Of a stretch of DNA of 39,657 bases, positions 4,862 to 21,907 are shown piece by piece. A program made the translations under genes and the position numbers. Location of the stretch: contig QCIO01000012.1 in NCBI GenBank assembly GCA_003216635.1, positions 1 through 39,657 on the forward strand, written 5' to 3'. Positions within the stretch are counted from its first letter, which is position 1, and every line of letters starts with the position of its first letter. Below the pieces are notes generated by a model. The model saw only the letters and a program-made list of their open reading frames with translations. It did not search any database and had not been told where the DNA came from. Source of the stretch: Prochlorococcus sp. AG-402-L23. Its GTDB lineage: Bacteria; Cyanobacteriota; Cyanobacteriia; PCC-6307; Cyanobiaceae.

Positions 4862-5044
4862 ATGTCAGATAAAGATCTAAGTAATTTTCTAAAAAAAATA
4901 GAGCAACTTAATCAAATTGCTGAGCTAATAAAAAATGATCCTAGTAAAAAGTTATCCCTTTCCAAATGCAAGAATCATGATGAAGTAATTAAATTAACCA
5001 CTGAATGGGGTTTTGATATTGGTAAAAGGTGGGGAGAATATTAA
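4862..5044 (+). CDS. Nif11-like domain small protein
   Basis: This 60-residue protein begins MSDKDLSNFLKKIEQLNQI and ends with TTEWGFDIGKRWGEY. An N-terminal helix with xxLxxFLxxIxxL and a C-terminal GF(D/x) turn is the pattern of Nif11/nitrile-hydratase leader-like domains. In Prochlorococcus such domains serve as leaders of prochlorosin lanthipeptides, but here there is no GG cleavage site and no Cys/Ser/Thr-rich core after the domain. It is therefore more likely a free-standing Nif11 protein of unknown role. It lies 4 bases after a tiny membrane protein gene. Confidence 0.55.
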   Translation: MSDKDLSNFLKKIEQLNQIAELIKNDPSKKLSLSKCKNHDEVIKLTTEWGFDIGKRWGEY

Positions 5045-5129
5045 TTTATTTTATTACCAGCATTATTAAAATTGCCATCAACTTCAAATTAAATTCCTAA
5101 GATTAATTAGTATTTCTTGTATTTGAGTT

Positions 5130-5900
5130 ATGAAAGAAATTGGAGAGATAAAGTCAAATATTTATAAAATAGCTGCTGTTACAGATAGAGGGCAAAGATT
5201 AAATAAATTAATTTCTCCTATGTATGAAGAAAAAGCTAATGAAATGGTTGAATTGATTGATGCTCTTAAAGACTTTAGTTTTGAAATATCAGAAAAATCA
5301 TTATCTGGAGAGTGGGAATTGATTTTTTCTAATGTTGAATTATTTCGAAGTTCACCTTTCTTCCTTGCTATTGAAAAGGCATTAAATGATGAATTTAAAA
5401 GTAATCTTTTTTTTAAATTACATCAATTGCAAGTAGGATCCTTTGGCATATCAACTATTGGGAGAATTGCTCAAAAGATTGATTTTGACAAAAAAGAATT
5501 TATATCTACTTTTGACACTACAATATTTGGGCTCACAACAATTCCTATCTTAGGTTGGTTCAAACTATTGCCTACTTTTGGTGGAAGAGTAATAACTTTA
5601 GCAAGTGATTTAGTTTTAAGAAATAATTTGCTTGATATGAACTTAAAAAAGACAAAAGTTTCCAAAGTTGATGGACTTAATAAGATTCCATTATTTAGTG
5701 AATTACTAATGGATAGATGGTATCCCGTTAAAGAGGTATGGAATAATTTACCTTGGAATAAAGAATCGCCAAATTGCCAGGTTTCAATTGTATATTTAGA
5801 CGAAGAAATGAGAATTATGCAGGATATGTATGGGTCTATTTTTATTTATATAAGGCCTTCAATTTCCTTGTTGAATTCAAATACAATCTCTAATGATTAA
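5130..5900 (+). CDS. PAP/fibrillin-family protein
   Basis: The 256-residue soluble protein has the PAP/fibrillin lipocalin-like layout: an N-terminal helical part (residues 1-50), the LSGEWELIFSNVELFRSSPFF strand block at about residues 58-78, a long middle, and a C-terminal CQVSIVYLDEEMRIMQD strand with a final IRPS segment. Plant and cyanobacterial fibrillins bind lipids at thylakoids and plastoglobules and protect photosystems under stress. The gene is intact, unlike the split family member at 2157-2700. No signal peptide is present. It appears to be monocistronic, with gaps of about 85 and 110 bases on either side. Confidence 0.75.
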   Translation: MKEIGEIKSNIYKIAAVTDRGQRLNKLISPMYEEKANEMVELIDALKDFSFEISEKSLSGEWELIFSNVELFRSSPFFLAIEKALNDEFKSNLFFKLHQLQVGSFGISTIGRIAQKIDFDKKEFISTFDTTIFGLTTIPILGWFKLLPTFGGRVITLASDLVLRNNLLDMNLKKTKVSKVDGLNKIPLFSELLMDRWYPVKEVWNNLPWNKESPNCQVSIVYLDEEMRIMQDMYGSIFIYIRPSISLLNSNTISND

Positions 5901-10321: not shown

Positions 10322-10570
10322 ATGAATTTTATTTTTTCTTTTTTATTAGCATCTGTAATGTGGGTACAAGTTCCACAATGGGAAGCTGACTGGTCAAAAT
10401 GTGCTGTAGATGTTCCCGATTCATCATGTCACTGGTACGTAGCTGCTCCCGATAATACTTTTGGGGAAGGATTTAATTGGGAAAACGCTCCTTGGTTTGA
10501 TGCTAATGGATTAAAGGATGTAGCTAAGATTGAGAAAGAATCTGTAGTAGAAAAACTTCAAAATAACTAA
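10322..10570 (+). CDS. Small secreted or anchored protein with two Cys (82 aa)
   Basis: Residues 1-15 are hydrophobic and resemble a signal peptide or anchor. The rest is Trp-rich with a pair of Cys: QWEADWSKCAVDVPDSSCHW at about residues 19-38, then GFNWENAPWFDANG. The closely spaced Cys pair suggests a disulfide in the periplasm or lumen. I do not recognise a named family. It forms a possible operon with the 47-aa gene just upstream. Confidence 0.6.
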   Translation: MNFIFSFLLASVMWVQVPQWEADWSKCAVDVPDSSCHWYVAAPDNTFGEGFNWENAPWFDANGLKDVAKIEKESVVEKLQNN

Positions 10571-10800: not shown

Positions 10801-11586
10801 TTATTTGCGAGGCTTAGGAATCAAAAGAGATGCAACACAAATAACACTAATTGCAGGCCCAGGCGAAAGATTAAAGACTATAGAGAGAATAAATCCCAGA
10901 AGTGAGATGCATAATCCAAAAAATGAAGACCTCATCATTGCAATTCTTAAACTATGAGCATTATTTAGCCCTAACAAAGTTGGCGTAGAAAGAAGAGCAA
11001 TTACAAGAATTACTCCAACTGCTGACATTGAACTAACAATTACTAATGCCGTTGTAAAACTCAAAGCAAGATTTAATAAAGAAACGTTTATACCACTTGA
11101 GGATGCACCTTCTGGATCCAATCCCACATAAACAACCTTTTCATATCCAAAAGTCATTAAAAGTATAAATACTAAAAAAGCAATTATTGTTCTAACTAAA
11201 TCTCCAAAATTTGCTGTCAATAAATCGCCAAATAATACTGCCTCCAAATCAATCCTTATTCCGAGTAGAGGGATAATAAGGACTCCAAACCCAAGCATTC
11301 CAGCAAGAATAGTATTCATAACTGCTTCATAATTTTCACTGTTTCTATTAGTTAAACTTTCCGCAATTACCGAGCCTAAAAGACCACTGATAACACCACC
11401 AATTGAGGGGTGAATTCCAAGAGCTAAGGCTAAAGCAAGTCCAGGCAAAACACAATGAGAGATTAAATTAACTTGTAATAATCTCTTATGAGTGATTAAT
11501 ACAGTTCCCATCGCTGGACATAAGATCCCTGAGAAAATAGTTATTATTAATGGGACAAGCCACCAGTTGTTATTAATAAAAGACAT
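10801..11586 (-). CDS. znuB: Zinc ABC transporter membrane permease
   Basis: The 261-residue ABC-3-type permease has about eight membrane helices and the family's typical motifs: an early polar loop with HKRLLQVNLISHCVLPGLAL, then central ILAGMLGFGVL and a loop with VGLDPEGASSSGIN at about residues 153-167. The C-terminus (LIPKPRK) is short and basic. It moves Zn2+ through the inner membrane using energy from ZnuC after capture by ZnuA. Mn2+ transporters share the family, but the zur/znuA context points to zinc. It is separated from znuC by the opposite-strand zur gene (11604-12038), so its expression must depend on read-through from znuC or on a promoter inside zur. Confidence 0.88.
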   Translation of the reverse strand: MSFINNNWWLVPLIITIFSGILCPAMGTVLITHKRLLQVNLISHCVLPGLALALALGIHPSIGGVISGLLGSVIAESLTNRNSENYEAVMNTILAGMLGFGVLIIPLLGIRIDLEAVLFGDLLTANFGDLVRTIIAFLVFILLMTFGYEKVVYVGLDPEGASSSGINVSLLNLALSFTTALVIVSSMSAVGVILVIALLSTPTLLGLNNAHSLRIAMMRSSFFGLCISLLGFILSIVFNLSPGPAISVICVASLLIPKPRK

Positions 11587-11603: not shown

Positions 11604-12038
11604 ATGATCAAAAATACGGGACAAAAAAAGATTTCGGAAACAATGGTAACTAAGTCTGACATTACCAAAAGACAAGAACAACTTCTTGAAGAACTTAATA
11701 AATGCGAAGATGAATTGAGCGGTCAAGAGTTGCATAGACAATTGATAGAAAGCGGCAAAGCCATGGGATTGACAACTGTTTACAGGAATCTTCAAGTTCT
11801 GATAAAGCATGGTTTAATACGTTCTAGACATCTCCCAACTGGAGAGGTTCTTTACACTCCCGTAGATAGAGATATTCATCATTTGACCTGTGTTCAATGT
11901 GGTGAGACATCAAAAATGGAAGGATGCCCGGTAAAAGATATACATACACCCAAAACAAATTCAAAGAAATTCCAATTATTATTTCATACCCTCGAATATT
12001 TCGGGCTTTGCCAAAACTGTTATCAAGCTCAGAATTAA
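11604..12038 (+). CDS. zur: Fur-family zinc uptake regulator
   Basis: The 144-residue Fur-family repressor has a winged-helix domain at about residues 20-85 (SGQELHRQLIESG, LTTVYRNLQVLIKHGLIRS) and a C-terminal metal/dimer domain. It carries CxxC pairs at C96/C99 (HHLTCVQC) and C136/C139 (LCQNC), the structural zinc site. H92/H93 and H128 are possible sensory ligands. Zn-bound Zur would repress uptake genes. The start is ambiguous: ATG 11604, or ATG 11643 (MVTKSDITKRQ), which fits typical family length better. It lies alone on the plus strand between znuB and znuC, both on the minus strand. Zur rather than Fur is inferred from context. Confidence 0.85.
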   Translation: MIKNTGQKKISETMVTKSDITKRQEQLLEELNKCEDELSGQELHRQLIESGKAMGLTTVYRNLQVLIKHGLIRSRHLPTGEVLYTPVDRDIHHLTCVQCGETSKMEGCPVKDIHTPKTNSKKFQLLFHTLEYFGLCQNCYQAQN

Positions 12039-12051
12039 AAAGGAACATTTT

Positions 12052-12822
12052 CTAATCGCAGAAATTATTTTCCTTTATAGAACAAATGTTTATTGCATCT
12101 AATTTATCTTTTATTAGATCAGGACTACCAACTGCCAAAACACTTTTATCAAGAACTATTACTTGATCATAATTATTAAGAGACTCGCCCCAATCATGAC
12201 TACTTACGAGCAAAGAAAGTCCCGCATCAGCAAGTTGACGAACAATTTTTAGAAAATCCTCTTTTGCGGGGGGATCCAATGCCGCGCAAGGTTCATCCAG
12301 AAGAAATATTTTTGCAGGGGACATAAGAGTTTTTGCTAATAGAGCTCTTTGTTGCTGTCCTCCTGAAAGAGAATCGAGTCTTCTATTAGCCAAATTTGCA
12401 ATGCCTACTCTTTGCAATGTCGCCTCTAATTCACAACATTTATTAATCCAAGAATTAGGATATGCTAGAAGAGTCTTAATTTGAAAGGGGTTATTACTTC
12501 TCGATTTTGAATACTTAATTTGACCTAGAGATACCAATTTTTCAACTGTAATGGGAAACTTCCAATTCATAGAACTTCTTTGAGGCATAAGTGCCACTAG
12601 AGATCTAGATCTATATAAATTTTCACCGTCAATTTTTATTTCGCCTACATCTGGAGTATTTTGTCCTTGCAATATTCTCAAAAGAGTGGATTTACCTGCG
12701 CCATTTGGACCAACTAAGGCTGTTAGAGTTCCAGGCTTAATCTCAACCGAAACCTTATTTAAAACTGGCTTACTTTTTTTTTTGTATGCAAATGTTAAAT
12801 TTTCAGCGACTAAAGTAGCCAT
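12052..12822 (-). CDS. znuC: Zinc ABC transporter ATP-binding protein
   Basis: The 256-residue ATPase has Walker A GPNGAGKST at residues 38-46, a Q-loop Gln at 81, the ABC signature SLSGGQQQR at 151-159, Walker B KIFLLDEP at 171-178, and the switch His in SSHD (H209). It drives zinc import through ZnuB. Its start is at the divergent promoter region shared with znuA, 136 bases away, where the Zur-type palindrome lies. Its end is 13 bases from the convergent end of zur. A loop of about 30 residues between the Q-loop and the signature (near 104-135) is somewhat long for the family. Confidence 0.92.
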   Translation of the reverse strand: MATLVAENLTFAYKKKSKPVLNKVSVEIKPGTLTALVGPNGAGKSTLLRILQGQNTPDVGEIKIDGENLYRSRSLVALMPQRSSMNWKFPITVEKLVSLGQIKYSKSRSNNPFQIKTLLAYPNSWINKCCELEATLQRVGIANLANRRLDSLSGGQQQRALLAKTLMSPAKIFLLDEPCAALDPPAKEDFLKIVRQLADAGLSLLVSSHDWGESLNNYDQVIVLDKSVLAVGSPDLIKDKLDAINICSIKENNFCD

Positions 12823-12921
12823 TAATTAATCTTTTAAAAAAGTCACTTCACAAGCTTACCAATAATACTAGCTGCGTATTATTTTCATAACAATTGATAC
12901 CGATGCTTGTCAGGTACAATG

Positions 12922-12938
12922 AAAATGATTATCATTTT
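12922..12938. promoter_or_regulatory. Zur-type operator between divergent znuC and znuA
   Basis: The 17-base site AAAATGATTATCATTTT is a perfect 8-bp inverted repeat around a single T, close to the Zur-type pattern TGATAATnATTATCA. It lies 21 bases upstream of the znuA ATG and about 100 bases upstream of the znuC start. A TTGTCA at 12907-12912 could be the -35 of the znuA promoter, so Zur binding would block RNA polymerase. With zur next door, the assignment is strong, though binding is not shown here. Confidence 0.75.
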
Positions 12939-12958: not shown

Positions 12959-14494
12959 ATGTCAATTTTTAAAAGACTTTTAACAAATAAAACAGGTTCA
13001 AGCAGGTCAATCATTAAAATTTCGGTAATAGCTGGAACGATTATATTTTCTGGTTTTGGGCAAGATGTCATTGCTAAAGGAAAGTCATATGTTGCAGTTG
13101 AACCACTAGTTTGTGATTTAGTTAAATCAATTGCATTACCTTCTGACGAAGTTACATGCTTAGTAGATAGAAAACAGGATGTTCATGACTTAAAGATCAA
13201 TCCAAGGCAAGCTCAATTACTAAATAGCGCAGACAAGGTATTCACTCTTGGTAAAGAAATGACTCCAAGCATGAGAAATTGGGAAAATAAAAAGAATACT
13301 GTTGTTGTAGGTGTTAGTGCAATAGACGTAGACGATCATTCTGATCATGGAGGTCATGATGATCATTCAGACCATGGTGATCATGCTGAACATTCAGCTA
13401 AGGTAGATGATCATTCTGATCATGGAGGTCATGATGATCATTCAGACCATGGTGGACATGATGATCATGCTGAGGGTGATTTCGAATGGGCAGGTAAATT
13501 CCAGCTTTCTAAGGGTTCTTACAAATGGTCATTTGAAAAAGTCGATGGCGAATATGCAGATCCTGCAATGAAGATGGTGATTCTCAAATCTAATGATATA
13601 GAGGGGTCTGAAGATTTAGCTAAAGAATTATTAGGATCTAAGGACTCAATAAGCAGAAAAAATAATGACACTCTGATCGCAAGTAATAAGGCTTTTATTC
13701 TTAACTTTGATCAAAGAAAAGAAAGCACTGTTTTTAACGTGGATATCAAAGAAGATGGTCAATATATATTTTTTACTGAACACATGCCTTTTGAGTTTGA
13801 AGCAACTCAACACTTTTTTAAAGACGTTTTAAATAGTGATGTCGAACCAATAGCACAAGTACCAGACGAAGGAGAGGGGCATCATCACCATCATGACCAT
13901 GGAGGTCTAGATCCACATGTATGGCATGATCCACATAACATCATAAAAATGGGAGATGTTATAAGCAAAAGTTTAAAGAAAGATATTTCAGTTTTTAATA
14001 GAGGGGACAGAAAATTAATTAATGAAAGATTCGAAAAAGCTGATTCACTCTTAGAAGGTTTAGATAGTTGGATCGTCGAACAAGTAAGCTCTATTCCTGA
14101 GGAAAACAGAGTAATTGTCTCAAAACACAAAGCAATGGAATACTACGGTGATGCATTTGGTTTTGAAACTATTAGTTTACTTGACTTTCTTGGAGACTCC
14201 TCAAGCTTAAGGCCAGACAACATAAGTTCTACTTTAAAAATGTTAGATGAAGAGAAAGTTCAGGCAATATTTCCTGAACAAATTCCAGCATCTAAGTTAT
14301 TAAGGAACTTAAGTAGACAAAGTTCAGTTCCTTTAGCTTCCAATCAAATATTCGTTGATGGATTGATGATGGATGGTAATACGGTTTCAGTAGCCGTACA
14401 CAACACTTGTACAATTGTTGATTCATTAGGTGGAAGCTGTGATAAAGAATCTGGCTCCAATCTTGAGTCTGAATGGTACAAACTTTCAGATTAA
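12959..14494 (+). CDS. znuA: Zinc-binding periplasmic protein ZnuA with extra inserted domain
   Basis: This ZnuA is 511 residues, much longer than the usual 300 or so. A signal segment (residues about 18-39) precedes the mature chain. Likely zinc ligands are H76 (DVHDLK), H320 (DPHVWHDP) and H390 (SKHKAME); an acidic residue near D467 could complete the site. Between the first two lie a His/Asp-rich loop (126-173, containing a 25-residue tandem repeat), an inserted domain (about 174-299, FEWAGKFQL to FTEHMPFEFE), and a His cluster (308-314). The insertion resembles one in the CobW GTPase encoded next. It captures Zn2+ in the periplasm and delivers it to ZnuB. It is divergent from znuC and 77 bases upstream of the cobW-family gene, probably one transcript. 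Confidence 0.92.
   Translation: MSIFKRLLTNKTGSSRSIIKISVIAGTIIFSGFGQDVIAKGKSYVAVEPLVCDLVKSIALPSDEVTCLVDRKQDVHDLKINPRQAQLLNSADKVFTLGKEMTPSMRNWENKKNTVVVGVSAIDVDDHSDHGGHDDHSDHGDHAEHSAKVDDHSDHGGHDDHSDHGGHDDHAEGDFEWAGKFQLSKGSYKWSFEKVDGEYADPAMKMVILKSNDIEGSEDLAKELLGSKDSISRKNNDTLIASNKAFILNFDQRKESTVFNVDIKEDGQYIFFTEHMPFEFEATQHFFKDVLNSDVEPIAQVPDEGEGHHHHHDHGGLDPHVWHDPHNIIKMGDVISKSLKKDISVFNRGDRKLINERFEKADSLLEGLDSWIVEQVSSIPEENRVIVSKHKAMEYYGDAFGFETISLLDFLGDSSSLRPDNISSTLKMLDEEKVQAIFPEQIPASKLLRNLSRQSSVPLASNQIFVDGLMMDGNTVSVAVHNTCTIVDSLGGSCDKESGSNLESEWYKLSD
13334..13454 (+). repeat. 75-base-period direct repeat in the znuA His-rich loop
   Basis: A 46-base sequence is repeated exactly at 13334-13379 and 13409-13454, with a 75-base period. 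It is in frame, so 25 residues of the His/Asp-rich loop (DDHSDHGGHDDHSDHG type) are duplicated. Shorter GATCAT units recur inside each copy. Such loops in ZnuA proteins bind zinc with moderate affinity. The exact match at DNA level implies a recent duplication. Confidence 0.9.
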
Positions 14495-14571
14495 ATTTTC
14501 CTAATAAAAACGGTTTTCATTTCTTACTATTACTATTATTAAACTATTGTTTTTCTAGTAAAAATCATTAA

Positions 14572-15927
14572 ATGAGCATCAAAGATAAAGTTCCCGTAAC
14601 CATTCTCACTGGATTTTTAGGTTCAGGGAAGACTACTTTGCTTAATAGAATACTAAGTGAAGAGCACGGGAAAAGAATAGCCGTAATTGAGAATGAATAC
14701 GGTGAAGTAGGTATAGATCAAGGGCTCGTAATTAATGCCGATGAAGAAGTATTTGAGATGTCAAATGGATGCATTTGTTGTACTGTTCGCGGTGATTTAA
14801 TAAGAGTCCTTGGCAACCTTATGAAAAGAAGAGACAAGTTTGACTATGTTTTAGTAGAAACGACTGGATTAGCAGATCCTGGGCCAGTTGCACAGACATT
14901 TTTCATGGATGAAGAAATTAGTTCTGAATTTACTCTCGATGGAATTGTGACTTTAGTTGATGCTGCACATATTGATCAGCAACTAGGTAGGAGTGATGAA
15001 AGTTCAGAACAAGTTGCATTTGCAGATGTTCTTGTCCTTAATAAAACTGATTTAGTCTCTGATGATGCACTAGATACTCTTGAATCGAGGTTGAGAGATA
15101 TGAACCGAATGACTCGAATTATTCGAGCCGAGGATGCCAAAGTACCAATTGAAACAGTCTTAAATCTAAGTGCATTTGATCTTGATCAGATCCTTAAACG
15201 CAGGCCAACATTCCTTGAACCAGAATATCCTTTTGAATGGACAGGTGTTTACGATCTTGATGCAGGTAAATATGAATTAATGCTCGAAGAAGGACCAGAT
15301 CCAGAAATGTCCCTAGTAGCTCTCCTTAACCAAGGTGAGAGCGAGGAGGAACTTAAAGATGGTGCTGAATCCTCCGTAAGACTTTATGCAGAAAAAGCTA
15401 ATACTTTAGCGAATGGAAATACTATCCCATATGGAGAACATGTAAATCTCAAATTGGGGGATAAAGGAAATAAATCCTTCATCCTGAACATAGAAAAACC
15501 AACAAAAATAGGTTTGTTTACACAGCACACTGCCGAAGAATTCAATATGAAAGTCATTAAAAGTGAAGAAAACAATTCAAAAGAAATTCCATTTAATACT
15601 GAAAGGTTCTGGCAAGCAGAGCATGAACATGATGATGAAGTAGGCTCAATTGCGATAGAGCGTTTTGGAGATGTTGACCCAGAAAAACTAAATACTTGGA
15701 TGGGAAGGCTTCTCTCAGAAAAAGGAGTGGATATATTCAGAACTAAAGGTTTCATAAGTTACTCAGGTAACCCAAGGCGAATAGTTTTCCAAGGAGTACA
15801 CATGTTATTTACTGCACAACCTGACAAAGAATGGGGTAACGAACCTCGTAGAAATCAACTTGTTTTTATCGGTAGAAATCTAAATGAGAAAGAGATGCAA
15901 GAAGGCTTTGATAAATGCCTGATATAG
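14572..15927 (+). CDS. CobW/COG0523-family zinc-linked GTPase with inserted domain
   Basis: The 451-residue G3E GTPase has the P-loop GFLGSGKT at residues 14-21, the metal-binding CxCC motif (C67, C69, C70 in GCICCT), ETTGLADP at 96-103, the base-recognising NKTD at 157-160, a HEHDDE metal cluster near 350-355, and the CobW C-terminal domain at about 357-437. COG0523 proteins act as metallochaperones or help under zinc shortage. Between the GTPase and the C-terminal domain lies an extra segment (about 220-338) with FEWTGVYDL and FTQHTAEEF, resembling the insert of ZnuA. It overlaps the WD40 gene start by 13 bases. Zinc delivery is inferred from context. Confidence 0.88.
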   Translation: MSIKDKVPVTILTGFLGSGKTTLLNRILSEEHGKRIAVIENEYGEVGIDQGLVINADEEVFEMSNGCICCTVRGDLIRVLGNLMKRRDKFDYVLVETTGLADPGPVAQTFFMDEEISSEFTLDGIVTLVDAAHIDQQLGRSDESSEQVAFADVLVLNKTDLVSDDALDTLESRLRDMNRMTRIIRAEDAKVPIETVLNLSAFDLDQILKRRPTFLEPEYPFEWTGVYDLDAGKYELMLEEGPDPEMSLVALLNQGESEEELKDGAESSVRLYAEKANTLANGNTIPYGEHVNLKLGDKGNKSFILNIEKPTKIGLFTQHTAEEFNMKVIKSEENNSKEIPFNTERFWQAEHEHDDEVGSIAIERFGDVDPEKLNTWMGRLLSEKGVDIFRTKGFISYSGNPRRIVFQGVHMLFTAQPDKEWGNEPRRNQLVFIGRNLNEKEMQEGFDKCLI

Positions 15928-16988
15928 AACCATTTAGCCCAAGAGGTATGTTCCACGTGGGATGGACAGCTGAAGTTAACGATTATGCTATAGCATGTGG
16001 CTGGGCTCTTAAAGGAAAACAATTTATTGTTGGCGACGTGGCAGGTGGTCTTTTCGCATTCGAGGGAAATACTGGAAAAATTATTTGGAAAAAAGAAAAT
16101 AAACACTCCGGTGGTCTATTAGCAATGGCCATTCATCCAGAGGGAGAAATATTTGCAACATCAGGTCAGGATGGAAATGTTCAAATTTGTAATTGTCACG
16201 AAGGTAAAGTAATTAAAACACTTGATCTTGGGAAGGGTTGGGTAGAACACCTCAAGTGGTCTAATGACGGTTTATTTCTAGCGATAGCTTCCTCAAAAAA
16301 AGTATATGTTTTTAATGAAGTTGGTGAAGAGAAATGGATCTCAGAAGACCATCCAAGCACAGTAAGTGCAATAACATGGTCAAATAAAAATGAACTAGCT
16401 ACTGCTTGCTACGGAAGAGTGACATTCTTTGACATACTTAATAATAAAACGAATCAAACACTCGAGTGGCAAGGATCATTGGTATCAATGGAATTAAGTC
16501 CTGATGGAGATATAGTGGCCTGTGGAAGTCAAGACAATTCAGTTCATTTTTGGAGAAGATCTACCGGAATGGATGCTGAAATGACAGGATATCCTGGAAA
16601 ACCAAGTCACCTTTCATTTGATGACAGCGGAAAATTACTAGCAACTAGTGGCAGTGAAAGAATTACAGTATGGAGCTTTATAGGGAATGGACCTGAGGGG
16701 ACTATGCCCGGAGAGCTATGTCACCATACAGAACCCATTTCGAGCCTTGCCTTTTCAAATAAAGGTATGCTTGTAGCCTCGGGATCTAGGGATGGTTCTG
16801 TTGTCGCAAGTTTTCTAAAAAAAGACGGTAATGGAGATCCAGTTGGGGCTGCATTCGCCGGCGATTTAGTAGGGGCAATATCCTGGAGACCTGATGATTG
16901 TGCACTTGCAGCAGTTAACGCAAAAGGTGTGGTAAATGTATGGCAATTTAAAGTTCGTACTAACCTTTTTTCTAAGGGTTTTAAGTAA
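15915..16988 (+). CDS. WD40-repeat protein coupled to the CobW GTPase
   Basis: The 357-residue protein has seven or so WD40 blades: recurring strands such as GGLLAMAIHPEGEIFATSGQ, HLKWSNDGLFLAIASSKK, SLVSMELSPDGDIVACGSQD, and EPISSLAFSNKGMLVASGSRD, ending in WQFKVRTNLFSKGFK. WD40 propellers are scaffolds for protein binding. There is no signal peptide, so it is probably cytoplasmic. Its start overlaps the stop of the CobW gene by 13 bases, giving translational coupling, so a partner role for the GTPase is likely. No metal-binding motif is evident. Confidence 0.88.
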   Translation: MPDIEPFSPRGMFHVGWTAEVNDYAIACGWALKGKQFIVGDVAGGLFAFEGNTGKIIWKKENKHSGGLLAMAIHPEGEIFATSGQDGNVQICNCHEGKVIKTLDLGKGWVEHLKWSNDGLFLAIASSKKVYVFNEVGEEKWISEDHPSTVSAITWSNKNELATACYGRVTFFDILNNKTNQTLEWQGSLVSMELSPDGDIVACGSQDNSVHFWRRSTGMDAEMTGYPGKPSHLSFDDSGKLLATSGSERITVWSFIGNGPEGTMPGELCHHTEPISSLAFSNKGMLVASGSRDGSVVASFLKKDGNGDPVGAAFAGDLVGAISWRPDDCALAAVNAKGVVNVWQFKVRTNLFSKGFK

Positions 16989-18652: not shown

Positions 18653-20095
18653 ATGAAATATATGTTTGCAAGTTATCAGCCTAAAAATAGTTTTGATGAA
18701 TACTTTAAGGATAATGTTAACTCTGCTAGAGAAATATTGATTCCACTTCTTTCATCTTTAGATAATATGGGACTTGAGGAATTAAACAGGAATCATTCTG
18801 CCGCAAAAAAATTATTACTAAGACATGGTGCAACTTTTAGATTAAACGATACTGGTTTAAAAGGTACTGAGAGAATATTACCTTTTGATCCACTTCCTAG
18901 AATAATTAGTAAAGATGATTGGGTAACGTTAGAAAAAGGCCTAAAACAAAGGCTTGAGGCAATAGATTTATTCCTAGATGATATTTATAATTCTCAAAAA
19001 ATAATTAATGATGGAATAATTCCAAGAGAATTAATAGAGAGTTCAGACGGTTGGAGACCTCAGATGATAGGTTTCAAACCTCCACTAAATAAATGGTGTC
19101 AAATTTCAGGACTTGATTTAATAAGAGATAGAAAAGGAGATTGGCATGTTTTAGAAGATAATTTAAGGTGCCCTTCTGGGGTTGCTTATTTTTTAGAAAA
19201 TAGATTAGTTATGAAGAATATTTTCCCTAATCTTTTCTCAGGAAGAATAGTAAAACCCATTGATGAATATCCATCATATCTTTTAAAAACTCTTCAAGAA
19301 CTTGCTGTTTGGACTGACACTCCCAAGATAGTTCTACTAACTCCAGGAATTTTTAATAGTGCTTATTTTGAACATAGTTATTTAGCTCAAGAAATGGGCA
19401 TCCAACTAGTTCAGGGTCATGACTTAGTTTGTAATGATGATTATGTATATTTAAAAACTACCTCTGGATTAAAAAGAGTAGATGTCATTTACAGACGAAT
19501 TGATGATGATTTCTTAGATCCACTTAATTTCAGAAAAGATTCCTGCCTTGGTGTTAGCGGATTACTTGATGTTTTTAAGGCAGGTCATGTTGCTTTAGCA
19601 AATGCACCTGGGACTGGAATAGCAGATGATAAAATGATTTATTCATTTGTTCCAAAAATGATTAAATATTATCTTGATGAAGAAATTATTATTAAAAATG
19701 TAGAAACTTATATTTGTCATTATCAAAAGGATCGAGAATATGTTCTCGAAAATTTATCAAAACTTGTTGTTAAGTCTGTCGCAGAAGCTGGTGGTTATGG
19801 AATGTTAATTGGCCCTCACTCAACAACGAGTGAGATAGAAGAATTCGCTAATAAAATTAAAAATAATCCTAGAAATTTCATAGCACAACCAACATTAGAA
19901 TTATCTACTGTGCCATCTTTATGTGATGGAGAACTATATCCATGTCATGTTGATTTAAGACCATATATCTTAAGAGGAAAAGATTCATGGGTTAGCCCAG
20001 GCGGCCTTACGAGAGTCGCATTAAAAAAAGGATCATTAGTCGTTAATTCTTCTCAAGGTGGAGGATGCAAAGATACATGGGTTGTAGGTAAATAA
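18653..20095 (+). CDS. Circularly permuted ATP-grasp type 2 protein
   Basis: The 480-residue protein is a DUF404/DUF407-type, circularly permuted ATP-grasp enzyme. Typical motifs are EDNLRCPSGVAYFLENR (about residues 167-183), YRRIDDDFLDP near 280, an ATP-binding VKSVAEAGGYGMLIGP near 373-388, and the C-terminal HVDLRPYIL and RVALKKGSLVVNSSQGGGCKD. ATP-grasp enzymes form amide bonds; this group is predicted to ligate a peptide or amino acid, with no experimentally fixed substrate known to me. It is the first gene of a cassette with an alpha-E gene one base downstream and a transglutaminase gene next. The start at ATG 18653 is supported by the gap. Confidence 0.92.
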   Translation: MKYMFASYQPKNSFDEYFKDNVNSAREILIPLLSSLDNMGLEELNRNHSAAKKLLLRHGATFRLNDTGLKGTERILPFDPLPRIISKDDWVTLEKGLKQRLEAIDLFLDDIYNSQKIINDGIIPRELIESSDGWRPQMIGFKPPLNKWCQISGLDLIRDRKGDWHVLEDNLRCPSGVAYFLENRLVMKNIFPNLFSGRIVKPIDEYPSYLLKTLQELAVWTDTPKIVLLTPGIFNSAYFEHSYLAQEMGIQLVQGHDLVCNDDYVYLKTTSGLKRVDVIYRRIDDDFLDPLNFRKDSCLGVSGLLDVFKAGHVALANAPGTGIADDKMIYSFVPKMIKYYLDEEIIIKNVETYICHYQKDREYVLENLSKLVVKSVAEAGGYGMLIGPHSTTSEIEEFANKIKNNPRNFIAQPTLELSTVPSLCDGELYPCHVDLRPYILRGKDSWVSPGGLTRVALKKGSLVVNSSQGGGCKDTWVVGK

Positions 20096-20096
20096 T

Positions 20097-21038
20097 ATGC
20101 TTTTAAGTCGTGTAGCAGAATCTCTTTATTGGATCAATCGTTATTTAGAACGTGTGGAAAACATATCTCGTTTCGTGGAAGTAAGCGAAGCAATGTCATT
20201 AGATTGTCCACCAGGAAGTGCAGAACCTTGGCTCCCGTTAATTGATGCTTCTAGTGACAGAGAATCTTTTGATAAAAGATTCCCAGAGAAAAAACCTGAT
20301 GACGTTATTAATTTTTTAATAAGAGATCGTTTAAATCCAAATAGCATAATTTCTTGCATTCAAATGGCAAGAGAAAACGCAAGACAAATCAGAGATGTCA
20401 TGACCACAGAAATGTGGGAACAGATTAATATTTTATATTGGAATATGCAAGAAGGAGAGGCAATATGGAATAAACCAAGACAAGAACAATTAAGTGAAAT
20501 AAGGAGGGAATGTCAGCTTTTTTATGGAATTACAGATGCGACTCTAAGCAAAGATCTTGCCTGGAGATTTAGCATTCTTGGAAGATTAATCGAAAGAGCT
20601 GACAAAACATCAAGAATTCTAGATGTTAAATATTATTTACTCCTACCGAGCTTAGATGAACTTGGAGGAGTTCTTGATGAGCTGCAATGGATAGCACTTT
20701 TACGTTCAGCTGGAGCTTATCAAATGTTTAGGAAAGCAGTGCAAAATTCTATAAAGCCTAATTCAGTTGCGAGATTTCTTTTACTTGATCCAATTTTCCC
20801 TAGATCAGTAAGATACTGTCTTGATGGGATAAGCAATACTCTTAAAACAATAGATGCCTCTCCATCTACTGAAAATCCTTCAGAATTAGAATGCATGAGA
20901 GGTTTGCTTAAAGCAAAGTGGAGTTATATCAGAATTGAAGATATAATAAATGATGGTTTGCATGAGGCAATCGATTCATTGCAAATGGATTTAAATAAAT
21001 TAAATGATCTTATTCAAGAAAAATATTTTATTAATTAA
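20097..21038 (+). CDS. Alpha-E domain protein (DUF403)
   Basis: The 313-residue all-helical protein opens MLLSRVAESLYWINRYLERV, the hallmark start of the alpha-E family, and continues with conserved segments RENARQIRDVMTTEMWEQIN (about residues 89-108) and WRFSILGRLIERADKTSRIL (about 157-176). It has no assigned catalytic activity. Alpha-E proteins almost always sit next to a permuted ATP-grasp gene, as here with a 1-base gap, and are taken to be its partner. The transglutaminase gene follows after 11 bases. It is cytoplasmic. Confidence 0.92.
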   Translation: MLLSRVAESLYWINRYLERVENISRFVEVSEAMSLDCPPGSAEPWLPLIDASSDRESFDKRFPEKKPDDVINFLIRDRLNPNSIISCIQMARENARQIRDVMTTEMWEQINILYWNMQEGEAIWNKPRQEQLSEIRRECQLFYGITDATLSKDLAWRFSILGRLIERADKTSRILDVKYYLLLPSLDELGGVLDELQWIALLRSAGAYQMFRKAVQNSIKPNSVARFLLLDPIFPRSVRYCLDGISNTLKTIDASPSTENPSELECMRGLLKAKWSYIRIEDIINDGLHEAIDSLQMDLNKLNDLIQEKYFIN

Positions 21039-21049
21039 TAAGTTTATTA

Positions 21050-21907
21050 ATGAGAATTAAATACCTTCACAAACTTGAATATAAATATGAAGATCCTGTT
21101 CAATTAGGCGAGCATAGATTATGTATAAAGCCAAGGTCAAATGGCTTCCAAAAACTAAAGAATTTTGAATTAAAAATAACCCCAGACCCAGAAATTATTT
21201 ATCCATTACTTGCTGCCAGCGGAGAAGAGATTAATAGAATCAGATTCAATGGATTAACAGATAATTTAATCATTGAATCAATCAGCGAAGTTGAAACTAT
21301 TAAACATCCAAACATTATTGATGGAGTTAAAAATAGAGATTTAACATTACCTTTTTGTAGAAGCATTATTAACAGAGATTTACAGGGAGCATTAGAGGGA
21401 TGGATGCCAAATGGTCAACACGATCCCTCTGCTGTAGAACTTGCTCAAGAAGCCTTAGCAGGAAGCATTAATAACGCATTATCATTTACCTACCAGCTAA
21501 TAGAGATTATTCAAGATCGGGTTAAATATACCAAAAGACATACAGGTCCAGCATGGCCCGCTAGTAGAACACTTAGAGAACGTATAGGTTCATGCAGAGA
21601 TTTAGCAATGCTGATGGTTGAAGCTTGCAGGTCTATAGGTATCCCAAGTAGATTTGTAAGTGGTTATCATTTTGAAGATCCGTTACCCTCTGAGTTGGAT
21701 TTACACGCCTGGGCTGAATTATATATTCCAGGTGCTGGCTGGAGAGGTTTTGATCCAAGCGGAAAAGGATTAATAGATGATAGATATTTAACATTGGTAT
21801 CCTCTTCAAAATCTAATTTAACCTCTGTAATTACAGGAAACTTTATAGGAAAAAATAATTTAGAAAATACTTTATCTTGGGAAATCAAACCTCTTGAAAT
21901 TAAATAA
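21050..21907 (+). CDS. Transglutaminase-like protease/ligase domain protein
   Basis: The 285-residue protein has an N-terminal beta domain (about residues 1-80: MRIKYLHKLEYKYEDPVQLG) and a transglutaminase-like core with a complete triad: C182 in GSCRDLAMLM, H219 in DLHAWAELY, and D235 in GFDPSGKG. It may hydrolyse or form peptide amide bonds. It follows the alpha-E gene by 11 bases, completing a three-gene cassette that recurs in many bacteria. The natural substrate is unknown, but the set suggests making and breaking of an amide-linked modification. Confidence 0.9.
   Translation: MRIKYLHKLEYKYEDPVQLGEHRLCIKPRSNGFQKLKNFELKITPDPEIIYPLLAASGEEINRIRFNGLTDNLIIESISEVETIKHPNIIDGVKNRDLTLPFCRSIINRDLQGALEGWMPNGQHDPSAVELAQEALAGSINNALSFTYQLIEIIQDRVKYTKRHTGPAWPASRTLRERIGSCRDLAMLMVEACRSIGIPSRFVSGYHFEDPLPSELDLHAWAELYIPGAGWRGFDPSGKGLIDDRYLTLVSSSKSNLTSVITGNFIGKNNLENTLSWEIKPLEIK

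Follow-up and report, generated by a model that had tools for sequence, protein, structure and literature searches.

Accessory domains of metal-handling proteins are known from several zinc systems. ZinT has a lipocalin-like fold with a three-His zinc site, and the C-terminal extra domain of AdcA is ZinT-like. Both are accessory to a zinc-binding ATP-binding cassette (ABC) transport protein and act together with its His-rich loop when zinc is restricted (PMC7858048). AztD of the AztABCD system, a separate periplasmic beta-propeller, is a helper linked to Zur and passes zinc to a ZnuA-type protein via the loop of that acceptor (PMC6689063), and ZepA of Anabaena is a Zur-regulated extracellular zinc protein with a beta-sandwich domain (PMC10957091). 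Among GTPases, COG0523 subfamily 5 (Haas et al. 2009) clusters with WD40 genes and znuABC, with some members predicted to be under Zur (PMC2770081), and algal COG0523 proteins (CobW/WW-domain factor, ZNG3) have an extra domain or partner. Here, we describe an unnamed domain family tied to metal handling in bacteria and archaea and on both sides of the membrane, starting from a zinc cluster of Prochlorococcus sp. AG-402-L23 (contig QCIO01000012.1, whose 39,657 nucleotides are hereafter the window), in which the domain is built into both ZnuA and an adjacent CobW-family GTPase.

The domain resembles these accessories in setting and differs from each in kind. The extra domain of AdcA is C-terminal, whereas here it is spliced into a loop; ZinT has a three-His site where the ZnuA copy has a single His, and no ZinT model is among the seven Pfam families matched by 21 members at E up to 10, in a scan whose HMMER filters drop most matches above about 0.1. 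In contrast to the free-standing propeller AztD, the predicted beta-sandwich lies inside the acceptor itself; inspection by eye shows no signal peptide in the WD40 protein of this cluster, which, unlike AztD, accompanies the cytoplasmic GTPase. The zinc site of ZepA, H-X(2-9)-H-[FY]-H (PMC10957091), is absent from both copies, which have one His (ZnuA) and two (CobW). The likeness to COG0523 subfamily 5 is one of gene neighbourhood, the available part of PMC2770081 making no mention of an inserted domain, and the domain of the algal proteins is a different one.

A domain shared by ZnuA and an adjacent GTPase

The two copies, their hosts and the gene that follows them lie as follows:

12959 to 14494, + strand: znuA, host of the first domain copy (Pfam PF01297, E 1.8e-42)
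13478 to 13810, + strand: shared domain, ZnuA copy, residues 174-284, with a conserved tail to about residue 297 (about 13870); AlphaFold2 mean predicted local distance difference test (pLDDT) score 80.5
14572 to 15927, + strand: COG0523/CobW-family GTPase, host of the second copy (PF02492 at residues 8-184, PF07683 at residues 358-450)
15229 to 15555, + strand: shared domain, CobW copy, residues 220-328; AlphaFold2 mean pLDDT 70.5
15915 to 16988, + strand: WD40-repeat gene, strict partner of the domain-bearing CobW (co-occurrence, 38 of 151 family genomes)

The initial annotation had proposed that ZnuA and CobW, unrelated in their core folds, carry the same extra domain, and both parts of this proposal are borne out. 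ZnuA matches PF01297 at 146.1 bits against a cut-off of 29, while the GTPase is covered by PF02492 (E 2.4e-61) and PF07683 (E 1.8e-24) and has the CxCC motif as CICC (for the role of CxCC in COG0523 GTPases see PMC7895991). The domain, of about 110 residues, sits within the His-rich loop of ZnuA, directly before the DPHVWHDP motif, and in CobW between the GTPase domain and CobW_C, shortly before an HxHD motif.

The two copies match each other in pairwise BLASTP at E 2e-6, and profile-profile comparison of the ZnuA and CobW inserts gave a probability of 96.7 (E 3.7e-10) with an alignment spanning their length. For a strict test, a hidden Markov model (HMM) was built from 10 CobW inserts only and run against 1,255 decoy open reading frames (ORFs), 2,100 shuffles and reversed copies; ORFs with [FW]EWxG had been taken out of the decoys, and the two leftovers that scored resemble frameshifted haloarchaeal and broken Pantoea copies. 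This profile of the insert alone, a search that the initial annotation had named as a check, picked up the cyanobacterial ZnuA inserts, three in number, with E values of 2e-16, 1e-15 and 8.7e-15, far beyond the best of the 2,100 shuffles (0.33). It also recovered haloarchaeal ZnuA copies (E 2.9e-27 to 1.4e-24), a copy in Alicyclobacillus (E 1e-25) and standalone copies (E 3.7e-24 to 1.7e-21). The reverse profile, from the three cyanobacterial ZnuA inserts, is weaker: its matches to the CobW inserts, all ten of them recovered, range from E 3e-8 to 1.7e-4 (best shuffle 0.88). A profile of four haloarchaeal ZnuA copies matched the other groups at E 1e-43 to 1.4e-4 (best shuffle 0.043).

Most of the motifs first noticed by eye are in register in the alignment (FEWxG, LxxGxY, DPxM and FTxHxxxEF). 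The supposed shared F-I-L-N strand is not: FILN of ZnuA lies over VNLKL of CobW, and FILN of CobW over VFNVDI of ZnuA, one strand later, so this likeness is a chance match.

No Pfam or NCBIfam model reaches its cut-off over either insert (21 members scanned), and no PDB sequence matches over the domain. The NCBIfam model PRK07906, matched by 3 of the 21 members (best E 2.4e-4), was set aside as chance because it scored 19.8 bits against a cut-off of 382. A literature search by title or abstract start retrieved no paper on the domain, and the available parts of PMC9010474, PMC8786288, PMC10642216 and PMC9820375 do not describe it. The domain is a single undescribed family built into several unrelated metal-handling proteins.

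Conserved residues and His-rich flanks

Five residues, Glu3, Asp28, His102, Glu106 and Phe107, show no variation in 181 of 181 distinct near-full-length copies (29 of 210 distinct copies, shorter than 95 residues, were excluded), extending the conservation first noted for the His and Glu of FTxHxxxEF; the four polar ones correspond to ZnuA residues 176, 201, 275 and 279. Trp4, Gly6, Leu10, Gly13 and Pro29 have one variant each among the 181. The five invariant residues are also constant in 21 diverse copies (alignment A6; alignments A1 and A2 hold 21 and 18 of the copies found). A divergent CobW in genome G176 has lost Trp4 and Gly6 and kept Glu3, Asp28, His102 and Glu106, and a broken copy in Pantoea soli reads PFGW and GPNP, so Glu3 and Asp28 are lost there. 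Within the domain itself there need be only a single His, and Cys can be absent: in the window, the ZnuA copy has one His and no Cys in 111 residues, and the CobW copy has two His. At most one site, formed by one His and carboxylates, is therefore conceivable within the domain.

The ZnuA copy is surrounded by His, with 11 in the 40 residues before the domain and 10 in the 55 after, in what we take to be the known loop before the second metal-ligand His. Two stretches of DNA encode these flanks:

13328 to 13473, + strand: tandem repeat encoding the His-rich part of the ZnuA loop directly before the domain
13880 to 13906, + strand: second His-rich stretch, 3' of the domain, directly before the DPHVWHDP motif

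The tandem repeats that encode the loop have units of 27 and 75 bases, and loop length differs among relatives. His-rich flanks, defined as three or more His both in the preceding 40 residues and in the following 55, were counted in 96 of 98 distinct extracytoplasmic copies (a set that excludes the broken Pantoea soli copy), 19 of which a script had classed as 'other' and which were counted as ZnuA by locus and frame length; one exception is the ZnuA copy of L023, with two His before, and the other is taken up below. By comparison, 69 distinct CobW copies have 0-1 His before and 0-3 after, the latter mostly in the HxHD motif before CobW_C. Zinc storage, one of the roles initially suggested for the domain, is unlikely: the storage-like part is the surrounding His-rich loop, which is absent from the CobW copy, and the ZnuA copy itself offers one His and no Cys. 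Metal sensing or docking, suggested alongside storage, may still apply.

Predicted fold

AlphaFold2 models of both inserts consist of three strands, a helix (residues 43-54 or 43-57) and then six or five strands. This common order of elements lends support to, and does not prove, the shared fold anticipated in the initial annotation, since one set of 40 sequences, drawn entirely from the window and its picocyanobacterial relatives, made up both alignments, so that the models are not independent and their likeness is partly built in. Foldseek returned no PDB match at E 0.001 or better for either model. With a second structure aligner the best Z values were 5.8 and 6.3, and the matches were a mixture of GOLD domains, Eph receptor domains, viral jelly rolls and carbohydrate-binding modules. 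The entries 1o6u, 5azw and 9fow appear in both lists, among unrelated folds, at Z 4.9-6.2 and rmsd 3.1-3.8 over 76-100 aligned residues; 5azw is a GOLD domain by its title, and we take 1o6u and 9fow to be GOLD domains as well. No ZinT, lipocalin or cupredoxin structure is among the matches listed for the two models, which does not speak against such a relationship. We regard the predicted fold as a generic beta-sandwich, without a firm PDB match.

Distribution across bacteria and archaea

In tblastn searches (E up to 0.1), the same 11 of 72,556 plasmid records came up with three different queries, namely the copy in the CobW of the window, that of Pantoea and that of Alicyclobacillus; the Halorubrum copy matches 10 of those 11, and the ZnuA copy of the window matches seven (E up to 0.01). 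The hosts are four ZnuA proteins (Halorubrum, two Haloarcula and Halorientalis), three CobW proteins (Pantoea agglomerans, Pantoea soli, where it is broken, and Paraburkholderia sprentiae), one membrane protein (Alicyclobacillus curvatus) and three standalone copies (Halosolutus, Halomontanus and Natrinema), the last being short lipoprotein-like proteins with a lipobox-like SGC. Annotated neighbours of the Alicyclobacillus gene include cation transporters and a metal-sensitive regulator. An HxxxxDH motif gives its product what we presume to be a resemblance to NicO-type nickel transporters, but no NicO-type match was found in Pfam, where the only hit was DUF2207_C at E 0.23, and NCBIfam gave none.

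The standalone copy of Natrinema versiforme (L178 1-5426) lies directly 3' of a urease operon, which hints at nickel besides zinc. The expectation that hosts would be mainly zinc-linked stands in part: seven of the 11 plasmid records have the domain in ZnuA or CobW, yet it is confined neither to this cluster nor to zinc, given the copy beside the urease (nickel) operon and two others with no metal transporter or chaperone annotated within about 15 kb.

Several of the plasmid loci have features of their own. In the neighbourhood of the broken CobW-with-domain and WD40 pair of the Pantoea soli plasmid (L177 ~4990-5700) are zigA and genes for a nickel transporter and a transcriptional repressor. 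The Haloarcula halophila record closes with a second, frameshifted domain-bearing znuA (L170 3467-5116), and the Paraburkholderia sprentiae CobW-with-domain (L180 5593-6696), near nodulation genes, has a stop codon within its GTPase part and may be broken.

Within cyanobacteria, a profile of 21 copies matches 31 of 386 genomes of the phylum. In the family of the window, the CobW copy is present in 38 of 151 genomes and the ZnuA copy in 30, all of them within the 38. At E < 1e-100 the WD40 gene is found exclusively in these same 38 genomes, always adjoining the CobW copy, with weak matches (E 4e-30 to 3e-22) in 11 further genomes of the 151. The genome of the window has five cobW-family GTPase matches, one perhaps cut by a contig start, and the domain search found in it only the two cluster copies plus an E 0.21 match elsewhere. 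Among the best 80 of 274 contig matches, all from Prochlorococcus or closely related picocyanobacteria, the named records closest to the ZnuA domain of the window are Prochlorococcus, including MIT 9201, MIT 9314 and MIT 9107. Outside the family, CobW copies occur in four genomes (G151, G176, G179 and G191), which may be mislabelled; G191 is 7% contaminated, and the genes on its contig look proteobacterial by eye. A phage or virus source was considered and rejected: tblastn found no relative in viral-contig stretches selected by search patterns, nor in 50,697 phage records at E 0.01.

Evolutionary history

In the domain tree, CobW copies and extracytoplasmic copies fall on two sides (support 87/81), with long branches present. 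A recent copying of the CobW insert into the neighbouring znuA, modelled by grouping cyanobacterial ZnuA inserts with picocyanobacterial CobW inserts, was rejected (13.5 log units worse; approximately unbiased test, p-AU 0.013). Neither a single group of all ZnuA inserts (p 0.22) nor a grouping of cyanobacterial ZnuA with all CobW inserts (p 0.195) is rejected, which leaves the deep branching order unsettled. A tree of the ZnuA core (30 sources reduced to 27 sequences, as G112_b, G413_b and G151_a dropped out) does not accommodate the domain-bearing cyanobacterial and haloarchaeal proteins as one group (p-AU 4e-90) and requires three changes. The domain thus entered the same His-rich loop more than once, or was lost repeatedly.

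Two genomes of the genus of the window, G354 and G473, keep the domain in CobW beside a ZnuA without it. G112 has, divergent beside its CobW-with-domain and WD40 genes, a ZnuA-family protein with neither domain nor His-rich loop. Two domain copies in one ZnuA were observed in G067 (L008 1081-1833, a 615-amino-acid frame) and in G078 (L010, an 873-amino-acid frame); the G078 copies, at 1561-1893 and 2530-2862, encode one and the same protein sequence at a spacing of 969 bases, while the G067 pair has diverged. From these patterns, the CobW copy is stable and the ZnuA copy labile.

Rates of change differ between the hosts. Identity to the window is 59-62% in the CobW insert versus 88-90% in the GTPase domain (G001, G056, G101 and G110), and 44% versus 82% in G413. 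Between the ZnuA of the window and that of G056, 84 of 123 residues of the insert and 129 of 196 of the C-terminal core are identical.

Possible functions of the domain

We favour, with a probability of about 0.45 and from sequence evidence, the reading that the domain is an accessory for handing over metal. Zinc would be gathered by the flexible His-rich loop of ZnuA; the domain would receive and hold one ion at a candidate site of Glu3, Asp28, His102 and Glu106, and the ion would then pass to the high-affinity site of the host, namely the His site of ZnuA or the CxCC site of the GTPase. The CobW copy would perform the same relay between a donor and the CxCC site. Such a domain would do from inside its host what ZinT and AztD do as separate or fused helpers, and could be useful at the very low zinc of the open ocean. 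Metal binding, hand-over and its direction are proposed on the strength of the homology of the copies, their metal-protein hosts, the His-rich flanks, the four invariant polar residues, the separate entry into the loop in cyanobacteria and haloarchaea (unless repeated loss accounts for it) and induction at low zinc. With regard to the last, synw0970-0973 of Synechococcus WH8102 (znuC, znuA and two function-unassigned genes) are upregulated at low zinc and without Zur (PMC9337993); if gene order, rather than sequence comparison, is a guide, synw0971-0973 are the three genes described here. As for the loop, that of ZnuA has a proposed part in transfer from ZinT, the transfer itself not being demonstrated, and that of AztC is required for transfer from AztD (PMC6689063). 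More tentative is a broader form of this proposal, in which evolution would repeatedly have placed a mobile metal-relay domain in the His-rich loops of metal proteins unrelated to each other, on both membrane sides and in bacteria and archaea, the import protein and the GTPase sharing hand-over chemistry.

Several observations weigh against hand-over. High-affinity zinc sites are not usually made of one His and carboxylates, and, judging by strand order, His102 and Glu106 may lie at the opposite end of the sandwich from Glu3 and Asp28. The ZnuA of G354 and G473, at the same locus, lacks the domain and has only His-rich repeats in its loop, and the 40 residues preceding the first of the two ZnuA copies of G067 contain no His. 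No metal transporter or chaperone is annotated within about 15 kb of the standalone copies of Halosolutus and Halomontanus; at a distance of 9 to 16 kb, the Halomontanus copy does have genes for a plastocyanin-family protein, an ArsR-family regulator and a zinc-binding dehydrogenase. Finally, the 181 copies behind the invariance count, like the 98 flank copies, are dominated by close relatives.

A role in docking comes close behind, most of all for CobW, whose WD40 partner is constant, though on its own it is still doubtful. The beta-sandwich would be a protein-binding surface that recruits the WD40 partner or clients to CobW and, outside the membrane, docks the host to the permease, the cell surface or a metal donor, and the invariant residues would serve the surface or the fold rather than metal. 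The strict pairing of domain-bearing CobW and adjoining WD40 gene in the same 38 of 151 family genomes argues for this, as do the adjacency of the two genes in Pantoea agglomerans (by Pfam) and Paraburkholderia (by annotation), the scaffold role of WD40 proteins (PMC6689063), the GOLD domains among the weak fold matches of both models and the single His and missing Cys of the ZnuA copy. However, no WD40 gene is annotated in the 4-5 kb around the haloarchaeal and Alicyclobacillus copies (one of these records is unannotated), so WD40 binding cannot be the general function, and four charged residues fixed on both membrane sides would be unexpected of a pure docking surface.

That same fixity bears on a structural spacer, which would set the distance between the arms of the His loop or between the two CobW domains and have no binding site of its own. 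The domain is dispensable in ZnuA, as G354 and G473 have the His-rich loop alone at the same place, and the CobW insert evolves faster than the neighbouring domains; but the ZnuA insert is conserved as much as the core, five residues are invariant across bacteria and archaea, and standalone copies would be left unexplained, and we consider a spacer unlikely. Least probable of all is the binding of a small organic ligand, a cell-surface sugar or a metal-chelator complex, to which the domain would bring its host. Weak fold matches to CBM35 (both models) and CBM6 (one model) and a weak CBM_35 profile match in 1 of 21 members (E 0.018) point in that direction, but Z values of 4-5 reflect a common arrangement and nothing more, and the domain is also present in a cytoplasmic GTPase, away from any cell-surface sugar.

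Passing metal on is the presumed role of both COG0523 GTPases and zinc-binding transport proteins. A domain common to both, with natural ZnuA variants with and without it in abundant ocean phototrophs, offers a handle on how metal moves from a loose His-rich loop to a tight site. Judged by gene order, it may also be relevant to the two zinc-responsive, function-unassigned genes of marine Synechococcus (PMC9337993).

The zinc cluster of the window

Both host genes lie, as first described, in one zinc cluster, at about 10.8-17 kb of the window, comprising znuB, a Fur-family regulator, znuC, znuA, the COG0523/CobW GTPase and the WD40-repeat gene. ZnuA, CobW and WD40 were assigned by Pfam; znuB, znuC and the Fur-family regulator were named by eye from their ORFs. 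The remaining features of the cluster are:

10801 to 11586, - strand: znuB (ORF named by eye)
11604 to 12038, + strand: Fur-family regulator, probably zur (ORF named by eye)
12052 to 12822, - strand: znuC (ORF named by eye)
12920 to 12938, + strand: Zur-box-like palindrome TGAAAATGATTATCATTTT, between znuC and znuA

The palindrome TGAAAATGATTATCATTTT lies in the intergenic region between the divergent znuC and znuA and ends 20 bases 5' of the znuA start. It is the sole single-mismatch match in the window to what we take to be the Zur-box consensus; with up to three mismatches, this consensus has 15 matches in the window against a shuffle mean of 11.9, which is no enrichment. The first 13 bases of the WD40 gene are shared with the end of cobW. 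Adjoining the cluster, at 10322-10570, is an ORF of 82 amino acids that begins in a signal-like manner and contains two Cys and several Trp. Downstream of the cluster, at 18653-21907, are three consecutive genes of 480, 313 and 285 amino acids that by eye look ATP-grasp-like, alpha-E-like and transglutaminase-like.

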